A program made the translations under genes and the position numbers. From assembly GCA_012295275.1 (NCBI GenBank), contig CM022671.1, positions 32,555,927-32,619,926 on the forward strand: a DNA stretch of 64,000 nucleotides. Reading direction: 5' to 3'. Shown here in pieces: positions 5,301-55,900 of the stretch. Below the pieces are notes generated by a model. It had not been told where the DNA came from and did no database searches. It saw only the letters and a list, made by a program, of their open reading frames with translations. Origin of the DNA: Chrysomallon squamiferum. Its lineage: Eukaryota; Mollusca; Gastropoda; Neomphalida; Peltospiridae. The stretch's first letter is position 1. Each line of letters begins with the position of its first letter.

Positions 5301-6696
5301 TTCTAATTTATAATGTTTTATAATATACTTTGGCAAGAAATAAATAAAACACTGAAAAGAGAAAACTTTTTAAAATTTTAAAAAGAAAGATTTTTATTCT
5401 CAGCTGGTCAGATTGCTAAAACAACAATAGGAATGATTCAGCAGTCTTACTAATATGCATTATAATGAACTTTTCATGAATAGTCGTTAACAGATGTTAC
5501 ACATTCGTAATTAAATAAGAAGGTCTTATCTAAAAATTATGACATAGAACAGGATGATGTTTTATTGCCCATATAAGAATTCGTTTTGTATCACAGTTAG
5601 CACTCGCAGAAAAAACTACACTTGACAATGGTAGGGGGTTAGTTTCGCTTACGTAAACCTCTGCACATACACACACACACGCAAATGTAAAAGAAACCTG
5701 AAGCATAAAACAATGTACATTGTAAGGAACGTTATTTATAAAAAGATCAGTTTACTCAATTGATGAATGAGTTCATTAACTGCATATGAAATAACAGACA
5801 ATAACTTATTTTCGATCATTTGGGACCAAAATGGATGACACAATATATGTATTATATTTCTTGAAAAAAAAAGTATTCTCTGTTATGTTTATTTGTTCAT
5901 TTGTTTTATAATTTATAAATTGCATATTTGTTTTGGTATAAATTTGCTAACTTTTCTTATTCAGACGTTCTAGTGAGGATAATAAAAACAATACTAATAA
6001 ATGTATATGTAAAATATTTTGCCAAATATTTTTAAAAATGATGTATTGTTAAAGCCAGTATGTCTGAAAATGGTGGCAATACTGATGTACAATAGAACTC
6101 GTATTTTGTATTTATTAAAAATATTTTTTAAAATTGTTTTCATGTTTTGTTTCAACTCGTTTAAATTTAATTCAGGGACTTAAGGCATTTTAGTTGAATA
6201 TTGTTTCTAACATTTAAAAGTTAAAATTTTGTTTTTTCTAGAGTGTTTCTGACATTTATTCATTCACTCATATACGTTCATTCAATAAGGCACTTATATA
6301 TGGGAATCATCGAAACACAAGAATTAAATTCTTCCATTAACTTACAAAAACAAGTGGATACATGAGCTAATGCTTCCTTCCTGGTGCACAACTTACGTTT
6401 CTACAGAAAATAGCGCCGGTGGTAAGCACTGAAACTGCGGTCATATCTAAATACCCATCTTTACCATAATACACGGTAAAAAAAAAAAAAAACCATTCGA
6501 GTTTAACAGAAAGTTCTCAGCAGAACTGCCAAAACACACTGAATAAATGCCACTAACAGCCGTAAAACAGCTATAAATCATTACAGTTTAACAGTGTATT
6601 TTTATTCTATTTCCATTTGAATATTTATACAGTCACGACAAGATTTACAAGCCTGTATTCAACATTGTAAAACAGTAATCTCAGTGTTAGCCGCTG

Positions 6697-7223: not shown

Positions 7224-9976
7224 TTACGTCTGCTCGGAAGTGTTGTATACGTATGTGAGACATTTCCCCGGGGTTTTGTTAGTAGTAATGTCATCTTCAA
7301 TAAGCACGAATGAAGAACTGTAACTGTCATCAAATTTGGGATATGACTGTTCATACTCCTCGTCTGAGACAAAAAGTTTCTTTAAATACATTCTTGCCCT
7401 CTGGGTCATATACTCCAGCCTGATCTTGCGAAAGTAAATGGACTGGAATCTATAAACGGGATGCACCAGTTCGCCGAGATCAAGTTTCACAACTCGTTTC
7501 AGGTACTCGATAGCTGCCCACACAGGATGCGTGGTCCTTGGATGCTCCAGCCTCATTTCTTTCGGGACTGGTGGAAACAGTCGTTTTTGACAGATGGTAG
7601 CAGCCCCCACTACCATTCCCGGTAACAACAACAACTTCCTCATTTTCCGCGCGCAGTAATCCACGAGTTCGTCGTCGGTTAATTCGGAAATGTCCTTGGC
7701 AGGTGTTTTAATTTGAAAACCACTGTTAAGCATCAGACTGTGATCCATGCTGCTGTCAGAAGAAATCTGACCATACATCTGAAAGTTTTGATTTTGAGAC
7801 TCGCGACGGATGATGTCTTGATTGTGAACTGAAGAACCAGAAGGAATTTCATCGACAACAGAACGAGTTTCGCTTTCTGAAGACCGAGACATTTCGTCCA
7901 TTTCTTTACCATTAGTGTATATCATAATCTTACGATCGCTGGGAATAGTTTCTCGATTTTTCCTCGTATACGGCACAGATGCTATTTCGTTATTTTCTGT
8001 CAAAACCATCACATCGTCTGGTGAACTCTGATTGCAAAACTCCTCTAAAGACACCGATTTTGCTTCTATTGGACACTGTGTGTCGTCAACTTTAACGGAA
8101 AACTCATTTTCTGGACACGTCTTTTTGGATGCTACTTCTTCATTCGCTCTCGAAACATGAGGTCGTTTGGAACCAAAATACGCTGTTGATCCACCATCAC
8201 ATTCAACTGAAACAGGCGCTGTATTATTTCTCATCTTAGCTTTCGAAGTAGAAGACTGAGGATTTCTGTCCTGAGTTATTCCTAAGCGTTGCTTTGATAT
8301 CAGCGGTTGTCTTGAGCATGGAAAGTTGTCATTAGGCAATTTTATCTTATCTGAATCTTCTTCTGCTTGTCGGCCTGTCGCTGGTACACTGAATACCCTA
8401 TGCGAATCTATAAATGAATCATTCATCTCCACTCTGTAATCTTCCCAGTCAGACTCCTCAACCAGTACTTCCGTGTCTGGCAAAAGCGCCATCTTTTGCT
8501 CAGTAAGATACATCAGAATCTGATACGCCGATCTGACCACGTCACCAGTCATGAGGGACGACGGCAGCACCTGTGAAGTTCCTCCGTTCGAAGACATCTC
8601 TATGCCGTTGTTCAAAGCAGTGATGACCGCGCTGAGTCGAGCGAGCTGCCCGGGAGCCTTGGCTATGGTTCCTCTTCGTCGCTCGTCATTGGCGTGTCTC
8701 TGCTGCCACATGTCTAACTCAGCAAGTCGACTGAAAGTAACAATTTTCAGTTTATATATATATATATATATATAAACTGAAAATGTGTTACTGAAAATAT
8801 AATACATTCGTGTAAAGCATAATTATGTACACGCATACACATGTATGCGGAGATAAACAAATACACTCACGAATATATAAATGTGTTTACACATATTATT
8901 ATTATTATTATTATTATTAATATTGTTGTACATTCACATGTTCTTAGACATTTTAAATAACTTTTTGTTTTGTTTTGTTTTTGTATAATAATAAAAATAA
9001 TAAAATAATATAAAAATTTAGAACATATCTACTTGTGTGTATATGTTTTATGTATATCACCTATTAAATTCTTTCCTGCCGTCTTCACGAAAAGTATAGG
9101 AAACGTTCTGCACTTGATGATAATTCTTAATTCCAGATAAAATCGTCTGCAATGTTGGACTGGTACCAGTGGTGTGCGAGTTGCCATCCCTGTCGCCGTC
9201 TGCTGTTTGAATAATACCTGGGTCTTTAGGACACGTGACTAGCAGACGGTCGCTAAGGCCGTCTGCGTCAAAAACGTCCAACAAACCTGTTGCATCTATG
9301 GCATTTATTGTTCCAATGAAATTGAAATGGAATAAATGATGGACGGATTTATTATTTTCATTTTTATCTGTTGCATCACACGGGCTGTAAAGTTTTAATA
9401 GATTCTCTGGACTGAATAAAGGGCACTTGCTAGTAAAGTCAATTCCTCTAAGAAAAGTTCCAAAGTTATCAAATATTCCGATTAAACTAATTCTATTTCC
9501 CGGCGGATGAACTTTAATTAGAGTTTCATTCACAGTCATTAGATTTTCTTCATCAATTAACAGTCTAGGAAAATTACTGATTTCCTTATCACTGACACTG
9601 TTTATATTCTGCGCTTTGTGAAGCGCCCACATTTCTTTTTCTAAACCGGCCACAGCTTGTTTAATTCTTGATAGAGCTGGAGACTTTTTGTCCCCTCGCC
9701 TCCCGGCTACGCAGATCCATAAAACTGGCTTTTCGGTCCATCCTTTAGCTTTGTCTACCACTACCGTAGCATCTGCGCCCATACAGCCAGCTACGGCCGT
9801 CAGTAACGGAAAAGAATTAGCTCCGTCGAGCAACACAGCGAATCTGTGAAGGTTGATATTAGCGCCCTCGATCCTTGGTCAAGAATGCTATTCAGGTTTA
9901 ATTCGTACCTCTGTGCTTGCTTTATCCTTTTCAAGTACATTTTTACTGTTTCTGGTGAATAAACTCGTGGCAACAT
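7224..9976 (-). CDS. DUF3987-type P-loop NTPase-like protein, frame broken once
   Basis: Exons: 9976 down to 9061, and 8730 down to 7224. The phase-2 intron (donor AATAG|GTGATA) restores KEFNSRLAELDMWQQ. Visible family features, in order, are a P-loop-like GRRGDKKSPAL, RLLIDEENLMTVNETL, IGIFDNFGTFL (Walker-B-like region with DN where family members usually have DE), DADGLSDRLLV, and AKAPGQLARLSAV in exon 2. These follow the DUF3987 pattern known mainly from bacteria and mobile elements; the biochemical role is unknown. A low-complexity linker and a basic C-terminal domain follow. The ATG at 9976 is the first in frame after an upstream stop. The frame of MLPRVYSPETVKMYL stops near 9800 while that of PLLTAVAGCMG is open across it. 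The exons sum to 2423 bases, one short of 808 codons, so one base appears missing near 9808-9814. It may be a pseudogene, an assembly error or a living gene. Confidence 0.6.
8736..8791. repeat. Near-perfect palindrome at the 3' end of the DUF3987 intron
   Basis: Arms ATTTTCAGTTTATATATA and its reverse complement meet in an alternating TA core. The outer arms continue as GTAACA and TGTTAC with a two-base interruption. On the minus strand the hairpin ends only a few bases before the acceptor at 8731-8732, so it covers the expected branch-point and pyrimidine-tract area. Confidence 0.8.
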
Positions 9977-18112: not shown

Positions 18113-21100
18113 TTATTTTATTTTTTTTTTTTTTTTTCAGTTATTGGTTTATTGTTAATTCCAATTATTATTTTTTTTCCACATTATATATATATATATA
18201 TATATTAGAGTCATGGTCTGAGTCATAATGCTTTTTGCATCATTGAACAAAAAAAATTACTTATTTATTAAAGGCTGGGATATCTTTTAAAAAGATCCCC
18301 TTTTATTAGAGGAACATTTTTTTTTTTTAGCAGTTTTATTCTTAGGCTGTATGAGCCCCAAATTTTTGAAAAATAGTGACTGTTCTGTGACAAAACTGTA
18401 AAACTATAAAATTTAATTATGTCTTCTTTTTTTTTTAATCTCATTTACATATTAAAATCTTTTGATTTTATGCAGAGTTGAAGGAGGGGAATTATTCGAC
18501 AGAGTTGTTGAATCTGTGCAGTTTGACGAAGCTACAGCCAAATTACTTTTTTATCAGATGGTTTGTGCTTGCAAGGTAATCAAACATTATGCTTTGAGTC
18601 ACCCTTTTTTATTTCAGTGAGGTGTTTTTTTTGGTGGTAGGATTTAAAAAAAAATTATTATTTATTTAAATGATTTTTTTTTTTATAGTCATTTCATATA
18701 AGTTTGTTTCAGTTTCTTCTTCTTTCTTTTGTCTTGTTATGTGTTTCTTAAACTTTAATTTTGAAAAATATTATAATTTGTTACTAAACAAATAATCATT
18801 AATTACTAAATTTATTTCAGTATTTGCATGACCAAGGAATTACACACAGAGATTTAAAGGTATGTACTATTACAATTATTACCACAACTATTACCACTAC
18901 ATTTACCACTATTGCTGCCACTATTTCCATTACTAGAATCATTCTTGTGACATTGGGGCAGTAGACTAGCAATATTAAGGACTGTGAAATGGCATGAATT
19001 TTCTAGAGGTTCTGAACAAATTTTGAAATGTAGATAAATAATATTTGATTGTGATGCTAATTTATATAAATTAACATCAGTGTAAAAAGAGTGAAGGTTA
19101 TTTATTAGTGAAAATTTAGCATATCATGGCAGGCATGTGCAATAGAACTATTAATTATGTAATCTATATACAAATCTAATATTAATCTGTAATGATTTGG
19201 ACAGGACCATTTGGCAATACAAATAAAATTTAGTAAAATGGAAAAAAAATTTGGATGGCACTCTCAAATGGTTAAATTATTGGGATGGCAATCTTTCTGT
19301 TACCTATACTACCAACACTGCTACTACTACAACTACTATTTCTACTGCTATTGATGTTATAACAGTGTATCTTGACGATAACAACTACTGCAACCATTAC
19401 TCCCAATACATAATATTAGTTAGTTGGTGTGGGCATTCTTTTGATTTTAAGCAAAAATGGGGGAAATGGGAAAACTTGAATGTTATTATTATTATTATTA
19501 TTATTATTTTGTTTTAGTAGTATTTATTTAAATATATGTTTCTTAGTTCAAAATAGGGTTGGATTTGATCGAAAGTAAAATGTTCTGTTATATTGAATTT
19601 TCAGCCAGAAAATATTTTATTAGCAACAGAAGAAAATGAAACTCTTATCAAGGTAAATGATAGTTTTGTTTAGACATTTTCACACAAACACACGCTGCCT
19701 CCTCATCTCTCTCTTCCCCCTCCCTCCTTCTCTCTCTCACTCTCTCTCTCTTTCTTTCTCTCTCACAATCTCACAATGCCACATTAACATATTTGTATAA
19801 TTTTAAAATATATTTTGTAATTCCAGTATAGTTTTACAGAATGCTATATAATTAATTTTAACTATCAGTATAAATATAAATGCTTTTGTCTTCCTTCATT
19901 TGAATGGTTATATTAAATATTATTAATTGGCTAAATGTTTTTTTTCCATCTTTATAAATTATTGTAATTTTTTATATACAAACTTTTGTTATTATTATTG
20001 TGATGATTTTTTTTTTTTTGGTAAGGTTACGGATTTTGGGTTATCAAAATTCATTGACGCTGGATCAATAATGAAGACATTTTGTGGAACACCCACATAT
20101 CTGGCACCCGAGATTCTAGAAACTGCAGGCTGTGGGTCATACACTAAAGCAATTGATGCTTGGAGTTTAGGAGTTATCCTGTATATATGGTTAGTTTCAT
20201 AATTATCATCCTGTTGTTAGAGTTTGGGAGTTACACTATATATCTAGTTAGTTACTAGAATTTGGGAGTTGTATTTTATAACTGGTTACTTACATTGTAT
20301 ATTATTATGATTAATTACATTGCATCCTGTTACAGAAGTTGAGGATCTATACTATATATCTAGTTATATATTGTTATCAGAATTAAGCAGTTATTACCTT
20401 TAAGGATATATATTAGCTATCTTAATTTACACTGAATTTAATAATATTTGTATTCAATTTTTATTAGTTTTATTATTATTATTATTATTATTTTTATTTT
20501 TTTTTTTTATTATGTTTACTTATTTATTTATTTGTATTTGTTTTTAAATTTAAAAAAAAATATTTTTTCAACTTAAATATTTAAAAACAGTCTTTAATCC
20601 AAGTAATTAACAATTTATATCTGTATTCTATTTTCATATAGTTTTGCAGTTTTTAACAATTTTTCAGTGTATCTGGTTATCCTCCATTTTCTGATGAGAG
20701 GAAAGATATGGAGTTGCCAAAACAGATACTAGGAGGCCATTACAGTTTTCCTAAACAGTACTGGAATGGCATATCAGAGACTGGTATGTATATATATATA
20801 ATATCACTGATTAATAAAACCTAGGTATTCATAACAGAAATGAATAAAATTAATAGTTGATAGTCTGCTCAAAAATATAATATAAATAATAAAATAACAT
20901 AAAATAAATAAAATAAAATGGAAGTTAATGGTTTTTTCCATAATAGTTAATAAATATACTGATAAATTTGTGGATTATTTCTGTAGAAAATGTATTTCCA
21001 TAATCCTCACAGTATTTTAGCCTCGGATAAATAAACTGACATTGACAAGAAGTAATCAGATACAATTACATTGACATGGTGTAATACAGATGTGTATAAA

Positions 21101-23219
21101 CACTGTAAAAATATTCAGGAAACGGCCTAACTGATTATATTGCAACAGTTTTAAATTAACAAAGCCATGGAAATGGACTCTCATCACTCTACACAGTATA
21201 ACTGGTATTTATGGCTTAACTACACAGCAGTCTTTCAATTAATAATTGGTGTGAGCACCATTGGTTGGTATAAAACCAGTTATTGAAAACTGGAACATGA
21301 AATACATGTACTTATCGATTATACCAGAAATCTGGAACATGAATACGTGTACTTCTTAATTATACCACAATTCAGGAACATTAATACATGTACTTCTTGA
21401 TTATACCACAATTCAGGAACGTGAATACATGTACTTCTTGATTATACCACAATTCAGGAACATGAATACATGTACTTCTTGATTATACCAGAATTCAGGA
21501 ACGTGAATACATGTACTTCTTAATTATACCACAATTCAGGAACGTGAATACATGTACTTCTTGATTATACCACAATTCAGGAACGTGAATACATGTACTT
21601 CTTGATTATAACAGAATTCACAAACATGAATACATGTACTTCTTAATTATACCACAATTCAGGAACATGAATACACGTACTTCTTGATTATAACAGAATT
21701 CACAAACATGAATACATGTACTTCTTAATTATACCACAATTCAGGAACATGAATACATGTACTTCTTGATTATACCAGAATTCACGAACATGAATACATG
21801 TACTTCTTGATTATACCAGAATTCACGAACATGAATACATGTACTTCTAGGTTATTCCAGAAATCTGGAACATGAATACATGTACTTCTTGATTATACCA
21901 GAATTCACGAACATGAATACATGTACTTCTAGGTTATTCCAGAAATCTGGAACATGAATACATGTAACAGAAATGATTTGGGTCTCCACTCTAGTTCTTG
22001 GGAGACAGACTTTCATTACAAAGATACATGTCTATGGTACCTATGATTTGTTTTTTAATAAGAAATATTTTTCTTCCTCAGTGATAGATCTTATTAAAAA
22101 ACTGCTGACTGTTGACCCCAAGAAGAGACTGACATTGTCAGAAGCTCTTAATCATCCGTGGTTTAAAGTAAGTTTTTTTTTTAAAATTTTAGCTTTATTA
22201 TTATAATGAAATATTTTTTTCAGATTAATACTGTCAGTGGTTTAAAATAAACTTTATACTGTATCACTTAATCTACAGTTTCTCTTTTAATATTGTTGAA
22301 AATAATTATCCCATAATACTGTCTCAAGTGGGAATATTTGAAATTACATGAAGCACTTGATTTTAATTTCTTGAATGCATTTTTTGCCTGCTGTAGTGAT
22401 CACAATTTTGATTTCTCCTGTGCCCAGAGTAGCAGTAAATTAAGTTTAATCAATCCTGTATGTTGCCTAAATACTGTCTGTTTCAACATGGTTCAAATTC
22501 TGACAGTTAGATGGTGATATCCAAAATAGTGTTGATAAAAAATTTTCATTCTCTATTCTGACTTAATGTTATTGATTTGGAAAGTTGGATCTTGAATTAA
22601 TTTTAAATATTTGCATTCATTTTATTGAGGATGAAGAGATGAAGCTTAAGGCCAACAGACTGATGTATCCAGAATCAGATGGGATGGCTCCACCAAACAA
22701 GATGGTTAATACATTTGTTTTTTAAATAGTAAAATAAAATAAATACTGTATTAATCTTGTTTGTGAATGTGTATGCATGTTTTTGATTCTGTGTGTGTGT
22801 GTGTGTGTGTGTGTCTGTGCATGTTGTCCTTTGTTTTCATTTAAAATTATTAATTAAGAAAAGGAATCTGCAAAATCATAAAATTTTCACACCACTTTTG
22901 TACCATTTTACCTCTGTTTTAGAACTATATAAAGAAAAAGCATATAAAATATTTTTTTTAAAAAGAGAAAAGTAAGAGATACCAAAGTCCTCAAGTTTAT
23001 TATATAAATACTAATCTGTCAGGCTCAGGAATTATTATTATCACTATGTATATATGCACAAACATCATCATCATTATTATCCATCTTATTACTATTATTA
23101 TTATTATTGTTTAGCCTGGGAAGAAGAGAAGTCTGGAAGGAGGGGAGGATCCTCCCTCAAAGAGGAAATCATCAGCAGACACAACATCACCTCCAGATTC
23201 TCCTGATGATGTTAACTGA
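12820..23219 (+). CDS. CHEK2: Checkpoint kinase 2 (serine/threonine kinase, FHA domain), complete
   Basis: Sixteen exons: 12820-13024, 13694-13812, 15443-15521, 16113-16178, 16635-16725, 17021-17129, 17342-17395, 17884-17948, 18476-18575, 18821-18859, 19605-19652, 20026-20189, 20668-20783, 22082-22167, 22630-22704, 23115-23219. They total 506 residues. The kinase acts downstream of ATM in the nucleus on DNA-damage targets. A short SQ/TQ region has GSQP and [11 protein letters not shown], whose T36 matches the human T68 context. The FHA domain (about 70-160) has [15 protein letters not shown] and SSNGTF. The kinase (about 178-445) has glycine loop GRGACGEV, ATP lysine K208, HRDLKPEN (D307), DFG (D328) and activation segment [12 protein letters not shown]. 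The C-terminal KRSLEGG and SKRKSS patches look like a nuclear localisation signal. ATG 12820 is the first in frame. All catalytic residues seen are intact. A donor-derived array follows exon 12 and a 41 bp minisatellite follows exon 13. Confidence 0.95.
18052..18140. repeat. (TTTA)n/(TTA)n/poly(T) tract in a CHEK2 intron
   Basis: TTTA tetranucleotides run into TTA trinucleotides and then a T-run, within the intron between the exons ending at 17948 and starting at 18476. Simple sequence only. Confidence 0.85.
20163..20400 (+). repeat. Degenerate array derived from CHEK2 exon 12 end plus its donor
   Basis: Exon 12 ends GAGTTTAGGAGTTATCCTG, then TATATATG|GTTAGT. Related units begin at about 20220 (GAGTTTGGGAGTTACAC, then TATATATCTAGTTAGTTA), 20258 (GAATTTGGGAGTTG), 20334 (GAAGTTGAGGATC) and 20379 (GAATTAAGCAG). 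Two units share a longer match 115 bases apart, at 20207-20252 and 20322-20367. The exonic part encodes the conserved kinase segment SLGVILYIC, so the exon is the source and the intron copies are secondary. Confidence 0.75.
21295..21965. repeat. 41 bp minisatellite, about 16 copies, in a CHEK2 intron
   Basis: The unit reads GAACATGAATACATGTACTT then CTTGATTATACCACAATTCAG, with variants such as CAGAATTCACGA and AGGTTATTCCAGAAATCTG. TGAATAC recurs every 41 bases (for example 21422 and 21463). Each unit holds the palindrome TACATGTA. The array lies between the exons ending at 20783 and starting at 22082. Unlike the donor-derived arrays, it shows no match to the adjacent exon ends. Confidence 0.9.
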
Positions 23220-33125: not shown

Positions 33126-34592
33126 GAGCAATGGTTAAGGTATAATGTGTCATTATTTTTTAATAGTGTTAAGTACTTACTTTTTCTCTGTGTGTGTCTT
33201 TGTGGGTTTATGGGTTTGAAAGAAATTGTTAGACATATACATATGTTTATCCTAGATGATTAATATAAGTAGTCATTGAAATAACAGTGATGATTTTCCT
33301 CAGATGCAATAACAATTAATATTAAAATACTCTAGTTAAATACATATTGATTAATTTGTATTTTATCAATATCATTTTAAAGATGAACCTAAACTTGAAG
33401 ATGTGGAAATGGAAGAAGTTACAACACAAAAATCTGAAGTATCAAAGGATGCAGAGAAAAAAGATGACGAGTCAAAAACAGTCGTTGATGAGCAGCAGAT
33501 GGAGGTGGAAGAGGAAGACGATGTGCTTGATCTGTGTGCTGATGAAGAACTGAAACAAAAACAAACCACAGGAAAAGCTGCCACAAGCCACGAACAGCAA
33601 GCAAAGCCACAGAAACAGCAACCACAGAAGAGTAAAAGTTTGGATGAGGAGTGTGACAGTGGTGTGGAGGACAATACTAGTGACAAGGATGATGAGTCAG
33701 ATGATAAGGATGATCATTCAGATCAGGATTCATCATCAGACAAGAAGGTAATGTTACAAAGCTTAGACGTCACTTCAGTAGTTTAGAAATATAGTAATTC
33801 GTGTTGAAATTATTGTTATTATTTAAGATATATTTGTCAGAAAACATCAGTAATATAGAGGTATGTGTGTGTATGTATAAATTACTTTTCCTTTCATTGG
33901 CAAATGTTCCATATTAAAAATAGTTAACACTTCAGGAAAAAACAATTAGAATTATTTTTTATATCTAAGAATTATTTAAGAAAGGAAAAATAAAATTAAT
34001 ATATGCAATAATGAAAACTTACAATTTGTTTTGTATTTTTTATGCTTAATTCCATTTAGCATAAGAAAGCTTATTTGTAAATAAATACCTTCTACTGTAG
34101 GCATTTAAAAACAAATATATTTTTTTAGAATGATGAAGTAAGTAAAGTAGGTGAAATGACAGATGACAAGACTTCCACAGGAGACGAATTATCTAGAGCT
34201 ATATCATGGCCACCAGGAAGATGGCGACTTGGTAAAGAATGTCCAAAAGCAAGATACCTCTTTATGCGATTTGCAACAAAAGGTGGGTTTTTCATTTAAA
34301 TGTTTCAAATTACTAGTAATGATATTTTCATAGCATTAGTTGTCTTCGGTTTTTATTTATTTTTAACAAAAGGTGGATTTCTTTGTTTTAATAACACTGT
34401 TCTTTATTTTTTTTTGGTTTTTATTTTATTTTTTTTTTTAAAAATAGATTTTAGATATATTAATTTCATTGAAATATTGTTAATTTTTACTTAGATATGA
34501 ATTAAATGCCCGTGTAGCAGAATTATAAATAAACGTTATTAATGTTCTTTCATTCTTAACCTTAATTAATTTATAATTAATATTCTGGTGCA

Positions 34593-48600: not shown

Positions 48601-51600
48601 GTCTATCAGTAGATACATAGATAGAAAGGAAGAGATGATTATTTAAACTAGAAGCAAAACCAATATGCCTACATAATCTATACTAGTCACTAAATAAAAA
48701 TATAATGTTAATTTTTATCATTATCATAATACATTAAACTATTTTAAGCAAGTTCTAATATACTAATTATACAGAAAATATTAAGATAAACAATTAAGTA
48801 ACAGTGTTAGAACCGAATAATCTTCTGAAATGTGATTGTTAAATTACTATTTTATGTTTGGTAATATGCCTTTCAGTTTGTTTTATAATATACCTTTGTG
48901 TCTATGTTTTATAATATACCTTTATATCTGTGTTTATAATATATCTTTCTGTCTGTGTTTTATAATATATCTTTCTGTCTGTGTTTATAATATATCTTTC
49001 TGTCTGTGTTTTATAATATACCTTTTTGTCTGTGTTTATAATATACTTTTATGTCTGTGTTTATAATACATCTTTCTGTCTGTGTTTTATAATATATCTT
49101 TCTGTCTGTGTTTATAATATACCTTTCTGTCTGTGTTTTATAAAATACATTTTTGTCTGTTTTTATAATATACTTTTTTGTCTGTGTTTTATAATATACC
49201 TTTTTGTCTGTGTTTATAATATACCTTTATGTCTGTGTTTATAATACATCTTTGTGTCTGTGTTTTATAAAATATATTTTTGTCTGTGTTTTATAATATA
49301 CCTTTTTGTCTGTGTTTATAACATACCTCTTTGTCTGTCTTTATAATATACCTTTTTTGTCTGTGTTTTATAATATACCTTTTTGTCTGTGCTGAAGGCC
49401 ACCACTCTGTAGAAGTTCAGTCCGAGGTTGTTGTAGAGCTGTTTGACCACAGCGAGAGGAGTACAGTGAAATGTGACAGATCTGATGACCTCTGACAGGT
49501 TCTCCACTCTCGGAATCACAAAGTCCTGCACTTTTTCATGTTCTTTGATGGAACTTAATTTTCCTGTCAGCCACTGATCTGTATCAGTCTGAAATTTCAG
49601 AATTTACTTTTTAATAAATACAATGTCACTGAGCAGCCTCTAGATCAGTTTACAAATCTTGTAACTGTTATAAGCAGTCAGGCATTTAACACATTTGATA
49701 TTTTTATATTTTATGCCACAGACAGTGTCATGTGTCATCACAAATACAGATTTGTATGTGTGGGTTTTTTTTTTTATCCAGTGTATACAGATAAACATAT
49801 ATAAATCAGCTTCACTCTGCAAATACTAAAAAGAACATAAATACGAACCTGCAATTTTGTAAGCAGATGATCCACAACTGCTTTCTGGAGATTGAGGGAT
49901 GGATCCCAGGTAACTTGTTCAAGGATGTGAATAACAACACTAAAAATACATATATCTTCTATTTTGAATCACAGAGTTCAGTTACAAACATGAGTGGAAA
50001 CATTTTTGTTTTAGTTTCAGTTATGTCGTTGTTTCATTTGTATTTTTCTATCTTCTATATATCAACAACCATTTAGACTCATTCACACAAATGTTTGTTT
50101 TGTCTGGATTTAAAAAAAAAACTAAAAATGTTCCATCTTAGGAAATGTATAATTTCTTCAAAAAATGTTATTGGTCAAAGTATTGCTCTTTGTAAAATGC
50201 TGTAACTGGTTTTCAAAAAAACCCACATTAATTTTGAAATGTGTATACAGAACTGTAACATGGCACAAATACTTCACTCAGTGTAGTGCGTTTGGCGTAT
50301 CTTACCCCAAGTAATTTCTCAGCATCAAGAAGCTGTCTGCTGAAGGAGGGAAGAGATTTGACAAATTTTCCAGCGACCTGGTCAAAGACTTGATGTATTT
50401 TTTGCTTGCAGTACAAAAATGATTTATCTGAAAATCAGTATGAATATATAAACATCATCTAAAAGATAGAAATAGGAAATGATTCTGGATAACTACATTT
50501 AATATCTTGCATAGATGGATTTATTTGCAGGAAAAAGCTGATATCTTAAGACAGTTACTAGTTAGATACATATGTATGTATGTATGGAAAATAAAGCACT
50601 AAACAGATGTAAATTTAAATGATATATTTCTGAACTCTACACACTAGAGAGTAGTAGTAGATTCAAGTATATTGCTTTCCTTATTGATGAAAAAATACAC
50701 ATCGAAACAAAATATTTTTTTTACAACAATTTGTCATTTTTAAAATCTAAACCAGCAATTAAACAGTAAAGCAGTAAATCTGAACAATATGTGCGTGCGT
50801 GTGTGTTTTTATAATATACTTTTTTTGTCTGTGTTTATAACATATCTTTTTGTGTTTGTTTATAATATACCTTTATATATGTAATATATGTAAGTAAATA
50901 CAGTTATGACCCAGAAACTATATTTATGTTAAGTGTGCACACTTAAAAACAAACATGTAAATCCAGACAGGGAACTCCACCTACTGTTTACAAACTGAGG
51001 ATTTTTCTTTTCTAAAGTAACACTTTCCTCTGATAATTTTAAAGGCTGGCATCCCCTGGGTTAAATTTTGCTCCATTATTGCATACTCTCTAGACTCATC
51101 ATTTTACTCTACCATTTTACAGTCAGTAGCTCAACTAAGTATAAGAAAATGGCATTTGCTCCATTACTTTATATTAGCTAGACACTGTGATATCAAAAAG
51201 TGGCATTTGCTCTCTTATTGTAACACAACTAGACGTAGCTTGGTGTGAAAAAACTGCATTTGCTCCATTACTGTATCCAGCTAGGCATACCATGGTATCA
51301 GAAAGTGGCATTTGCACCATTAAAGTTTCACAACTAGACATACTTCGGTATCAGAAAGTGGCATTGGCTCTACAAAAGCATATCCCATGGTCTGCTGAAC
51401 AGCTTCCATTGCCATGTGCAGTACTTGATCTGTTATCTTTCTGTTAGCTTCTGATGTGTCTGTCAGATCCAGCATTACGGCCAATTCTCTGTAAACACAT
51501 TTTATTAGCACAAGAACAATTATGAAAACTGCATTTACTGTTATTTGTTATAATTTCAAGCAAGTTACTTAGTCATGGATATATGGTTCCAGGCATCTCC

Positions 51601-52865
51601 ACACATAAACCACAGAATATTTTTTAATTTATTTTTATAAAAGATTAATTTTTGATCTCTGTGGATTATTAAAAGCTGTCTTTTTCAATAAAGTCAAGCA
51701 CTGCTTTAGTTTAAACTTATCAGTAAATTGTATTCCTCAACAAAAACCATCAAGCCAAATACTAATTTATTCACTGGATCGTAGAAACGATCACTAACAT
51801 AATGCATTATATAATAATATAGTTTTTGAGTATATATTGTTGAGTTAGTAATATTAAAATAAGTGTCTGTTACTTAATACTTACAGAATGTTTTGTGGTA
51901 GTTCAGTTAATACTCACAGAATGTTTTGTGGTAGTTTAGTTAATACTTACAGAATGTTTTGTGGTAGTTCAGTTAATACTCACAGAATGTTTTGTGGTAG
52001 TTTAGTTAATACTCACAGAATGTTTTGTGGTAGTTCAGTTAATACAGAATGTTTTGTGGTAGTTTAGTTAATACTCACAGAATGTTTTGTGGTAGTTTAG
52101 TTAATACTTACAGAATGTTTTGTGGTAGTTCAGTTAATACTCACAGAATGTTTTGTGGTAGTTTAGTTAATACTTACAGAATGTTTTGTGGTAGTTCAGT
52201 TAATACTCACAGAATGTTTTGTGGTAGTTTAGTTAATACTCACAGAATGTTTTGTGGTAGTTCAGTTAATACTCACAGAAAGTTTTGTGGTAGTTTGGTG
52301 ATCTGATTGGATATGGCAAAGATGTCCAACAATCGTCGGCTGCTGGCAGGCAAACTGAATTCATTAACATCTAATTCCTGAAACAAAGACAACATCATAT
52401 TGCTTGTTATATCAAAAATATCTGAAATATTTCTAAAACAATGGAATAAAGAATATGCTTGCTAAAAACAGTGGTATATATTAACACCATTAAATGAAAT
52501 GAAAATAAAAAAAACATTTTAATTGCAAGGCTAAAGAACGAAAATATGTAATATAATATATTAGACAACATAATAATTTAAATAATAATTAGCATTACTT
52601 TATAAACTTGAAAGTAAAAAGAATGTAATGTACAGTGCTATTACTTTGCATATGGCTTTCAAGCAATGACAGATTTTGTTTTAAACATACAAATAAGTTT
52701 TTCCTGTTACCTTTGCAGTCCTGAGAGCGAATCTGTAAACAATCAAAGCTGTTTGATAGTATTCTTCATGTGTGAATAAAGATGCAACATCCTGTGAAAA
52801 AAGATCATAGAGACATTCAAGGAAAACATTTTTCCACTGTGGTGAATCCTACAGAAGACAATGAC

Positions 52866-52929
<64 letters not shown>

Positions 52930-55900
52930 TGAAGAATAATCACAACAACAACAACAACAACACTAATAATTTGTTATCAAGTTAAATTAGATTTGATTTT
53001 CTTATTAACAGTTTTTAACTGTACAACATTTAGCACTGGTATTGAACTTTAAAGTGTACCTGTTTATACGAGAGTGAAAGTTTCAGATGACATTCACCAA
53101 CAGGCTTGGTCCGGCTGTTTATGTTGCCGAGAGGGAAAATATCAAACCAGGTATCCCAGCCTTGATGTGGAATATTCTGAAATTAATACCACTTTTTAAC
53201 TAACTGAATAAAGTCTTAAATGAATAATATATCAATGCTTTTGATTTATTGTAACTTTTTTTTTATTGTTTTATTATGAAATATCTTGTAGTCATTTCCA
53301 AATACAATATAACTGCGAATTGTATTATTACATAAAACAGTTGCTTGTTTTCATGAAAACTAAATCTTTCTTTCCTTCCTTCTTGCAAGTCTAGACATAT
53401 ATTTAATGATTATGAAAATATCTTGGTTTCATTTTGTTATGTTGTATGTTAAGTGAATTACTAAATGTTTGATATACAGTCATTAATGACAAGTACCTCA
53501 ATTACTGTGCTGTCTTTAAAAACACAAACAAAGATAAAACAAAACTTTTAACACTCAAGTCTAGTGTTGATTCTTCTGTATTTTCCCTTCCAGAAATAAA
53601 AAATCCTCTCTTACTAAAAATACCATCTTTTACTTTTACAGGAATAAAAATCCTTTCTTTTACCTTGTAGGAATAAGAATCCTTATTCTTACAAAGTTAT
53701 GTAAATAAAAACTTCAGCTTTTAACCATTACAGCAATACAAATACTATCTTTTAATCTAACAGGAGTAAAAACCCCATCTCTTCTTCTTACAGGATTACA
53801 AATCCTGTCACTTTATTCTCAAAGGAAAAGTAAATCCTGTACTTTCTAGGAATAAAAATTCTGAAGCTTACCCTTATAGGAATACAGATTCTACCAATCC
53901 CTCCAGGAACTTGACAGTCAGAGTCTGAAGAGCTTTTTAAGACATTTTTGAAGAAACTGAAAATAAAATGTAAACACTTCCATTTTTATAAAATGTATTT
54001 TGAGGAAACAAGAGAATGGCTATCTTGATTTATTTAAGGTGAAAATTCATCCTTGGAATAAAACACGTAATAAAGACCTATAATCTAACAGTGTCATCTT
54101 TTCCTTTTTTTTTTTTTTTTTTTTTTTTTCACATGGAAACCACATTTTACCTGAAAATATAATTTTTTTGTCTAATTGTTTTTCTCTCATAAAAAAAAAA
54201 AAAAAAAAAAAAAATTAATTTATTTACTTTTTCAATGAATTTTTTTTGTCAGCTTCTGGAGAAGTCTGAGGATCTGCAATACACAGACAAATCTGAAGCT
54301 CTTCGAAGATGATATTTTCTATTTTGCTGAAACAGTGGACAAATATATGTTATAATAATATTAATAATAATATTTTAATATTTTAGTCTCATACACATTA
54401 AACATACTAGCAGCAAATATGTGAAAAGTAAGTAAAAAAACCCAATCAAAAACCCCCATCTATCCACCATTTAAAACACAATGTTAAGAATTTTCTTAAT
54501 TTTTTCCCCTCAATATTTCCATGTAATTGGCTATTAATGACAAAGTATAAATAATAATAATAATAAAAATAGTAGTAGAAGTAGTAGTAGTAGTAGTAAT
54601 AATAATAATAATAATAATAATAAAACGAATTATGAAAAAATAATAATGAAACAGTAACCATAATTATAATAATAATATCAATAATAAAAATAATGTAACA
54701 ACATGAAAATAAATGTAATAAAATTTCTATAATTAATGAATTCATTTAACTTAAATATTTTTTAATTCATACACTGATTTTTTTCAATGAGATGGGGTGG
54801 GAGGTAAAATAATTTCCAAGTTTCACTCACAACACAAAATCTTCATTCCATTTTCCAGCATGCAGTCCTTTAGCCGGCTGTGACTTCAAAACATCTTGTT
54901 CATACTTCAACAGCCTGCCCATGTTAGGGCTGAATTTTGACAGCTGTTTTGGAGAGTGTTTTGGCGACTGTTTTGGTGAGTGTTTTGGTGAGTGTTTTGG
55001 CGAGTATTTTGGCGATCGTTTGCCTTTGTAAGACTGACACAGTGCAAAGAGGCAGTACGTAGAACAGTCTGTCGGGACTTCACCTGATATGATAACAATA
55101 CAGCAAAATGTCTGTTATATATAATAACTGATAAATGTGATAACAGCACTGGTAGTTTTGTTGCCCCATTTGGTTTCATGACAACCAGCTTTAGGGCCTG
55201 CAGAGAAATTGCCACAATAATTCATAAAAAGGGAACAGAAAAATGATTTTCCCATTATAATGTTTGTATTATTGAGTGATCTGAATATGTATTATGGATT
55301 TACTTTCTGTGGGAGATTTTGCAGCAGTCGTTAACAGATCCAGAAAATCAACAGCTTTGTAATGATTGTGTTGTTCATTATATTTCTTTTCTGTTGTTAT
55401 TTAATTTTTATTTATTTTTATTTATTTATTTATATATTTTACAAAAACGAAGTTAACTAGAATATGAAAAATGTTTCTGTTGTGGCTGTTTTTACATGTT
55501 CTCTCTATCTGTCTGTCTGTCTATGTGTCTCACTGTCTGTTTACCTATCTGTATATATTTTACCTCTGTCAGTTTGTGTATTTGTCTGATTATTAATTCA
55601 AAATAAAAACATAATTGTCAAATTGATAAATTCAGAATTACAAAATGATTATAGATTAATTCTTCTTCTAAAATCAATGTAAAAAAAAAAGAAGATAAAA
55701 ATGCATGACAGTTGCTAAGGAAAACACTTCTTTTGTGTTGCTATGGATGATATACATATAAAGAGGTTAACACTCTGAAATAATTCTGTGATAAACATCA
55801 CAGTTTGCATAGCCTCACATGAAATGTTATTACTCGTTTCATTATTTTATATTTCACTTTAATAAAGAAAAGAAAATACAAAAATAATAACAAGTAGGTC

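Follow-up and report, generated by a model that had tools for sequence, protein, structure and literature searches.

Tandem arrays spanning exon–intron boundaries in a UNC13D-like gene and elsewhere in the genome of Chrysomallon squamiferum

How does an intron come to begin with a row of copies of the exon edge that precedes it? The question is raised by a 64,000-nucleotide stretch of the genome of the gastropod Chrysomallon squamiferum (G000:C7:32555927-32619926; hereafter, the window), which has a G+C content of 28.7% and belongs to an assembly of 404.6 Mb in 22 contigs. Four introns of a minus-strand gene in the window start with tandem arrays, here called A to D, whose repeat unit joins the last bases of the exon to the 5′ splice site. 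The top matches of the gene are mollusc UNC13D proteins (Gigantopelta aegis, 57% over the full query, then Haliotis and Littorina), and its name rests on these matches; Pfam returned no family for a 413-residue piece. An initial annotation, made from the letters alone, had described the arrays, and this observation is confirmed, whereas its interpretation as a recurrent duplication process starting at donor sites is supported in part. We consider it highly probable that the arrays are boundary-spanning minisatellites of the kind known as ‘mirages’, that is, tolerated local duplications that recur in the genome.

All four source exons were recovered by homologue alignment at the positions given here, and they splice in frame. 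Units were cut by eye, and each junction was scored (z) against shuffles of its own intron, taking the better of two query windows. Array A (53615..53871; this and the following features of the gene are on the minus strand) adjoins the exon 53872..53956, ending in ...GIGRICIPIR, and consists of five degenerate copies (65-74%) of the edge AATCTGTATTCCTATAAGG followed by GTAAGC, with a unit of ~30 bp (Tandem Repeats Finder (TRF) span 53615-53803, 30 bp; z 5.9). Array B (51874..52276), at the exon 52277..52377 (...KLPQNFL), has 12 contiguous 33-bp copies at 85-97% of the exon edge, every one with a GTRAGT donor bar one with a deletion (TRF span 51874-52295, 33 bp, 12.9 copies; z 17.1). At the exon 51344..51488 (...PMPLSDTE), array C (51139..51343) holds four copies of ~53 bp at 70-79% (TRF span 51139-51370, 53 bp, 4.4 copies; z 12.2). 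Array D (48855..49378), at the exon 49379..49588 (...AFSTDKK), is made of 19 copies at 88-100%, which align 25-26 bp apart under a higher-order period of 127 bp, with the donor GT changed in several of them (TRF span 48855-49391, periods 51 and 127; z 10.7). Of each unit, ~13 bases in D, ~20 in B, ~24 in A and ~27 in C come from the exon, within the 12-30 first proposed. The units are mutually unrelated, which upholds the claim that they arose independently. The D unit recurs, as three copies found by TRF at 50800..50874 in a further intron of this gene, ~1.4 kb upstream of array D in gene order. As a query, this piece found array D (81-88%) and a single weak place on C12, and it looks as if it had been copied between the two introns.

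The direction of copying follows from the protein. Over each of the four boundaries the spliced product aligns with ten mollusc UNC13D proteins with no inserted residue, the conserved exon-end residues being IPIR (A), QNFL (B), PLSDTE (C) and FSTDKK (D). Because the exon ends align to their homologues in this way, the exon bases are, on the alignment evidence, ancestral coding sequence from which the array copies derive, and in all likelihood the exon-proximal donor is the functional one. Translation continued beyond the exon ends immediately at a stop in B, and after seven codons in C. The further claim that identity falls with distance from the exon stood in sign alone: all four correlations were negative (A -0.45, B -0.49, C -0.90, D -0.68), but the trend was weak, with nominal significance limited to C (p 0.04, five copies) and D (27 matches, several by chance), and when matches of at least 68% identity were used the values were -0.80 (p 0.2) for C and -0.32 (p 0.16) for D.

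The window contains two further donor cases. The fifth, which the initial annotation had placed in CHEK2, was found as described: the exon 20026..20189 (plus strand, ...WSLGVILYI), backed by its reading frame and by alignment to the Chk2 structure over residues 44-470, is followed at 20190..20372 by three degenerate copies of its edge (66-78%; z 7.1 at donor 20189). A sixth, two-copy case lies in a gene that we take to be NCBP3, where the edge of the plus-strand exon 34129..34282 (z 7.0 at donor 34282) has one downstream copy (80%) at ~34352-34381. CHEK2 donor 22167 (z 3.9 in a first scan) and donor 29420 of a presumed CYP gene (z 3.3) did not exceed 4 in the final scan and were left uncounted. 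Among the 55 curated introns of the window (30,087 bp), z exceeded 4 at six donors and at none of the 55 acceptors (p 0.027), and all six donors also exceeded 5 with at least one of the query windows. Intron-interior windows, taken outside the boundary arrays, gave seven clusters at z above 5 in 389 (p 0.002 for donors versus interior); these p-values overstate the case, as the window was chosen for its arrays.

For the rest of the genome, 29 stretches of 10 kb were sampled. Of these, 25 lie apart from the window, at 16 round-number and nine random places on C1-C9, and amount to 228.7 kb of sequence without N. Exons in these distant stretches were predicted with a model built from the curated exons, which yielded 109 introns (86,065 bp); at a score above 0 this model recovered 47 of the 54 curated donors of the window and 45 of its 54 acceptors, while predicting 91 and 87. 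It replaced a self-trained model that had been drawn towards microsatellites, with a loss of sharpness in its splice matrices. Junctions were tested at 156 donors and 170 acceptors with the first query window and at 153 and 155 with the second, and 15 boundaries exceeded z 5 with either. Seven of these were dropped: L009 4546 as a coding repeat, L024 2174 and L025 6081 because the exon was unsupported on reading, three in L030 whose exons have only 15-25 bases, and L006 932-1069. The eight that were kept, three donors and five acceptors on four contigs, comprise donors 7518 and 2875 and acceptors 2029 and 8701 of SPT6 (L031, C7), acceptors 6077 and 7506 of PRPF4B (L024, C3), donor 8114 of TIPIN (L009, C4) and acceptor 2042 of a receptor phosphatase (L027, C1), the last with z 7.7 in the second query window and 0.9 in the first. 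SPT6 was identified by a 452-bit match and an SH2_2 domain, PRPF4B by a 112-bit match to a PRP4 homologue (Pfam found no family in this piece), and the remaining two by Swi3/TIPIN and phosphatase domains. The array-bearing exon itself lies within the protein match at SPT6 7518, 2875 and 8701, and at 7518 the protein continues across the junction without insertion (FPELSE/VW); for the other five the match covers other exons of the predicted gene. The unit spans a boundary in the new cases as in the window, and the expectation that such arrays recur in this genome was borne out. The restriction to donors was not: it describes the window, but in the distant stretches acceptors were about as frequent as donors, and we dropped it as a general rule.

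Two stretches that adjoin the window added related examples. In an LRR gene (L016), copies of the exon end at 68-78% lie downstream of donor 1474 and run into a 61-bp array of 24 copies that fills about half of the predicted intron, and in a biotin-carboxylase gene (L017) an array abuts donor 3022.

A count of splice-site motifs extended the comparison to the whole genome. The donor motif MAGGTRAGT occurred 12,823 times and its reversed control 13,447 times, yet tandem pairs of the donor motif numbered 629 versus 101 at gaps of 12-42 bases and 647 versus 149 at gaps of 43-73; per single motif, donor pairs were 6.5 times as frequent as in the control, although pairs are not mutually independent. 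Among the donor matches listed (100 of 629 places, from C1 to C3:21.2 Mb) there were 19 loci, 14 of them with at least two pairs, and the units visibly differed wherever letters were displayed. The control matches listed (100 of 101 places) formed 56 loci, ten with at least two pairs and none of those ten on C1-C3. For multi-copy loci the difference between donor and control was large (p 7e-6, with singles apportioned to contigs by size). The control motif also occurs outside introns, so a higher density of arrays in introns than elsewhere could account for some of the donor excess; the donor motif itself marks none of the 54 curated donors and 4 of the 193 predicted ones. The acceptor motif TTTTTCAG showed no clear excess (548 pairs for 69,138 singles versus 178 for 26,324 in the control), at low power, as it marks 3 of 54 curated and 6 of 213 predicted acceptors, so that acceptors may be affected genome-wide as well; the motif test is thus clear for donors alone. 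A second acceptor motif, TTTACAGR, was uninformative (1221 versus 1029 pairs), with most of its listed places lying in 30-bp blocks near C1:30.55-30.62 Mb; these blocks, at G000:C1:30553530-30615867, have a spacing of ~30 bases on both strands and are satellite-like. In a test within the sample, too small to carry weight, pairs of the donor core numbered 5 for 38 singles, and eight permuted cores gave 29 for 65, 1 for 21 and, in six cases, none.

Do splice junctions attract the arrays, or do they merely receive their share of arrays that land at random over non-coding DNA? Random placement fits the same anatomy and disputes enrichment alone, and we rate its chances as substantial, if somewhat below even. 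Several results favour it and weigh against a special role of boundaries. The initial annotation had proposed comparing array-to-donor matches with other positions; the raw boundaries were in excess over intron interiors (15 of 326, p 0.003), whereas for those that were kept the excess was not significant (8 of 326 versus 17 clusters in 1,079 windows, p 0.34; 19 clusters were found, and two, in L024 5245-6076 and L027 1486-2041, were excluded because they lie in introns of counted arrays). TRF permutation anchored 4 of 21 arrays in the distant stretches versus 2.25 expected (p 0.18), one of the four being an array in L028 that is not counted as a case, and 3 of 14 in the window and its flanks versus 1.2 (p 0.11). 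Loci with any donor-motif pair on C1-C3 numbered 19 versus 11 for the control (p 0.14). Two points count against the boundary-spanning reading itself: the arrays at L017 donor 3022, L027 acceptor 2042 and both SPT6 donors hold from 0 to ~6 exon bases, and the presence of four arrays each in UNC13D and in SPT6, the latter within one 10-kb stretch, suggests gene-level factors. Random placement does not predict such factors. The raw boundary hits, the sixfold excess of donor pairs, the 14 multi-pair donor loci on C1-C3 (versus ten among the control matches listed genome-wide) and the donors of the window, itself chosen for its arrays, all speak against random placement. The opposite reading is that 5′ splice sites in this lineage actively seed tandem duplication, through transcription- or U1-linked breaks or slippage (for example at co-transcriptional R-loops or U1-bound nascent RNA), so that introns are built outward from the exon. 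The donor-motif excess, unaccompanied by one for TTTTTCAG, and the multiple arrays per gene are in its favour. We regard it as unlikely: five of the eight new cases are acceptors, and the TTTTTCAG comparison is low-powered. If it did hold, introns would be lengthening outward from exon edges at a great number of places, and intron growth and gain by tandem duplication could be observed directly.

Selection offers a different account, in which rows of U1 sites modulate splicing or prevent premature polyadenylation within long AT-rich introns. Copies scoring within one unit of the authentic donor number 11 in B, nine in D and five at SPT6 2875, as such a function would have it, but only two at SPT6 7518, one each in C and TIPIN, and none in A and CHEK2; in part of D the donors are changed, acceptor arrays could not serve a U1 role, and young arrays would be expected to keep intact copies anyway. 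Such a function therefore seems improbable. Less probable still, to the point of being hard to credit, is an assembly artefact or a dispersed satellite. The 41-bp array of 16 copies at 21292-21966, which lies in a CHEK2 intron away from any boundary, does have relatives (72-73%) on C14 and at C7:26.36 Mb, and the similarity search tool scores best candidates only. Against this, a 601-bp query of exon plus array B had its own locus as its sole genome match, and queries with array C, the D copy at 50800 and the L016 array likewise returned their own locus only, bar the weak match for D; copies also diverge from each other, and contigs C1-C9 span 17-49 Mb. Because the arrays searched match their own locus, the weak place for D apart, local DNA duplication is more likely than transposition.

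We therefore return to boundary-spanning minisatellites and propose how they could form. A short tandem duplication straddling a splice site would place a second exon edge inside the intron, the founder being exon end plus donor in the window and also intron end plus exon start elsewhere. Unequal exchange or slippage might then multiply and homogenise the copies. The array would be tolerated, and effectively neutral, as long as the exon-proximal site is still used and the mRNA is unchanged, which protein conservation suggests; splicing at array introns is presumably normal. Where strong copies persist, as in B or at PRPF4B acceptor 6077, with 12 acceptor copies of similar strength (the phosphatase has none or one), the exon-proximal site must, on this reasoning, win by position or exon context. 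Arrays of this kind are present at several unlinked genes here and add to intron length.

The phenomenon is already described as the mirages of amphioxus. As far as the consulted parts of those reports go, mirages are minisatellite-like tandem duplications of exon-intron boundaries, many of whose units carry splice signals; they affect 5′ and 3′ boundaries of Adh3, the globins BflGb6 and BflGb9, PGBD5 and troponin C, with units of 10-72 and ~150-160 bp and apparently normal splicing, and somatic instability and copy number polymorphism are reported for Adh3 (PMC3087553; PMC3902484). The arrays here resemble them in the boundary-spanning unit and in affecting both boundary types (acceptor arrays in PRPF4B and SPT6, none in the window); they differ in belonging to a mollusc, in occurring in several unlinked genes with genome-wide motif counts, and in being known from one assembled sequence. 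Human internal tandem repeats in segmental duplications, with units of ~30 bp on average, also lie in part at exon-intron boundaries (PMC2812944); according to the portion consulted, they alter splicing or coding in recent paralogues, whereas here the UNC13D and SPT6 alignments show no change of protein at the exons that carry arrays. The Rogers model, in which introns are gained by tandem duplication of AGGT segments (potato RdRp; PMC4974935, consulted in part), shares the duplication with splice signals, but here the copies stay within one intron. Accordingly the route to intron gain raised by the initial annotation found no support: each site has a single intron, and no residues are inserted at the UNC13D array exons, a result that does not draw on intron positions in relatives. 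Nor did B, C, the 50800 D copy or L016, the arrays searched, behave as introners or dispersed repeats, apart from the one weak D match. Among the titles and abstract openings listed in literature searches, none reported such arrays in a mollusc, subscription papers lying outside their scope. With the dozen or so cases read here and the genome-wide count, a curiosity of a few amphioxus genes is extended to another group of animals. Rows of near-identical donors or acceptors, up to about a dozen beside one real site, are natural tests of exon-proximal splice choice, and the arrays give many places at which to ask if duplication across a boundary makes an intron longer or gives rise to a new one.

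Several other repeats and splice features were noted in passing. At L028 5910-6810, 30 copies of 31 bp decay from one end, from 97% to 65% (rho -0.84); the array, at 5939, was left uncounted because the donor predicted for it has a score of just 0.7 and Pfam gave no family for the predicted peptide. A 69-bp array of 3.4 copies at L031 4523-4757 begins ~8 bases past SPT6 donor 4765 and, the junction not being copied, was also uncounted. The 66-bp array at L009 3802-4803, at the end of the TIPIN-like gene, is mainly predicted coding sequence (PPTTLETEVS repeats). In the UNC13D-like gene, a 12-bp coding repeat (SPKH/SPKQ) lies at 54945-55015 within an exon, in a region where several homologues are SPK-rich, and the minus-strand exon 48315-48155 adjoins a GC-AG intron (GACAG/gcaagt), backed by the reading frame and homologue alignment.

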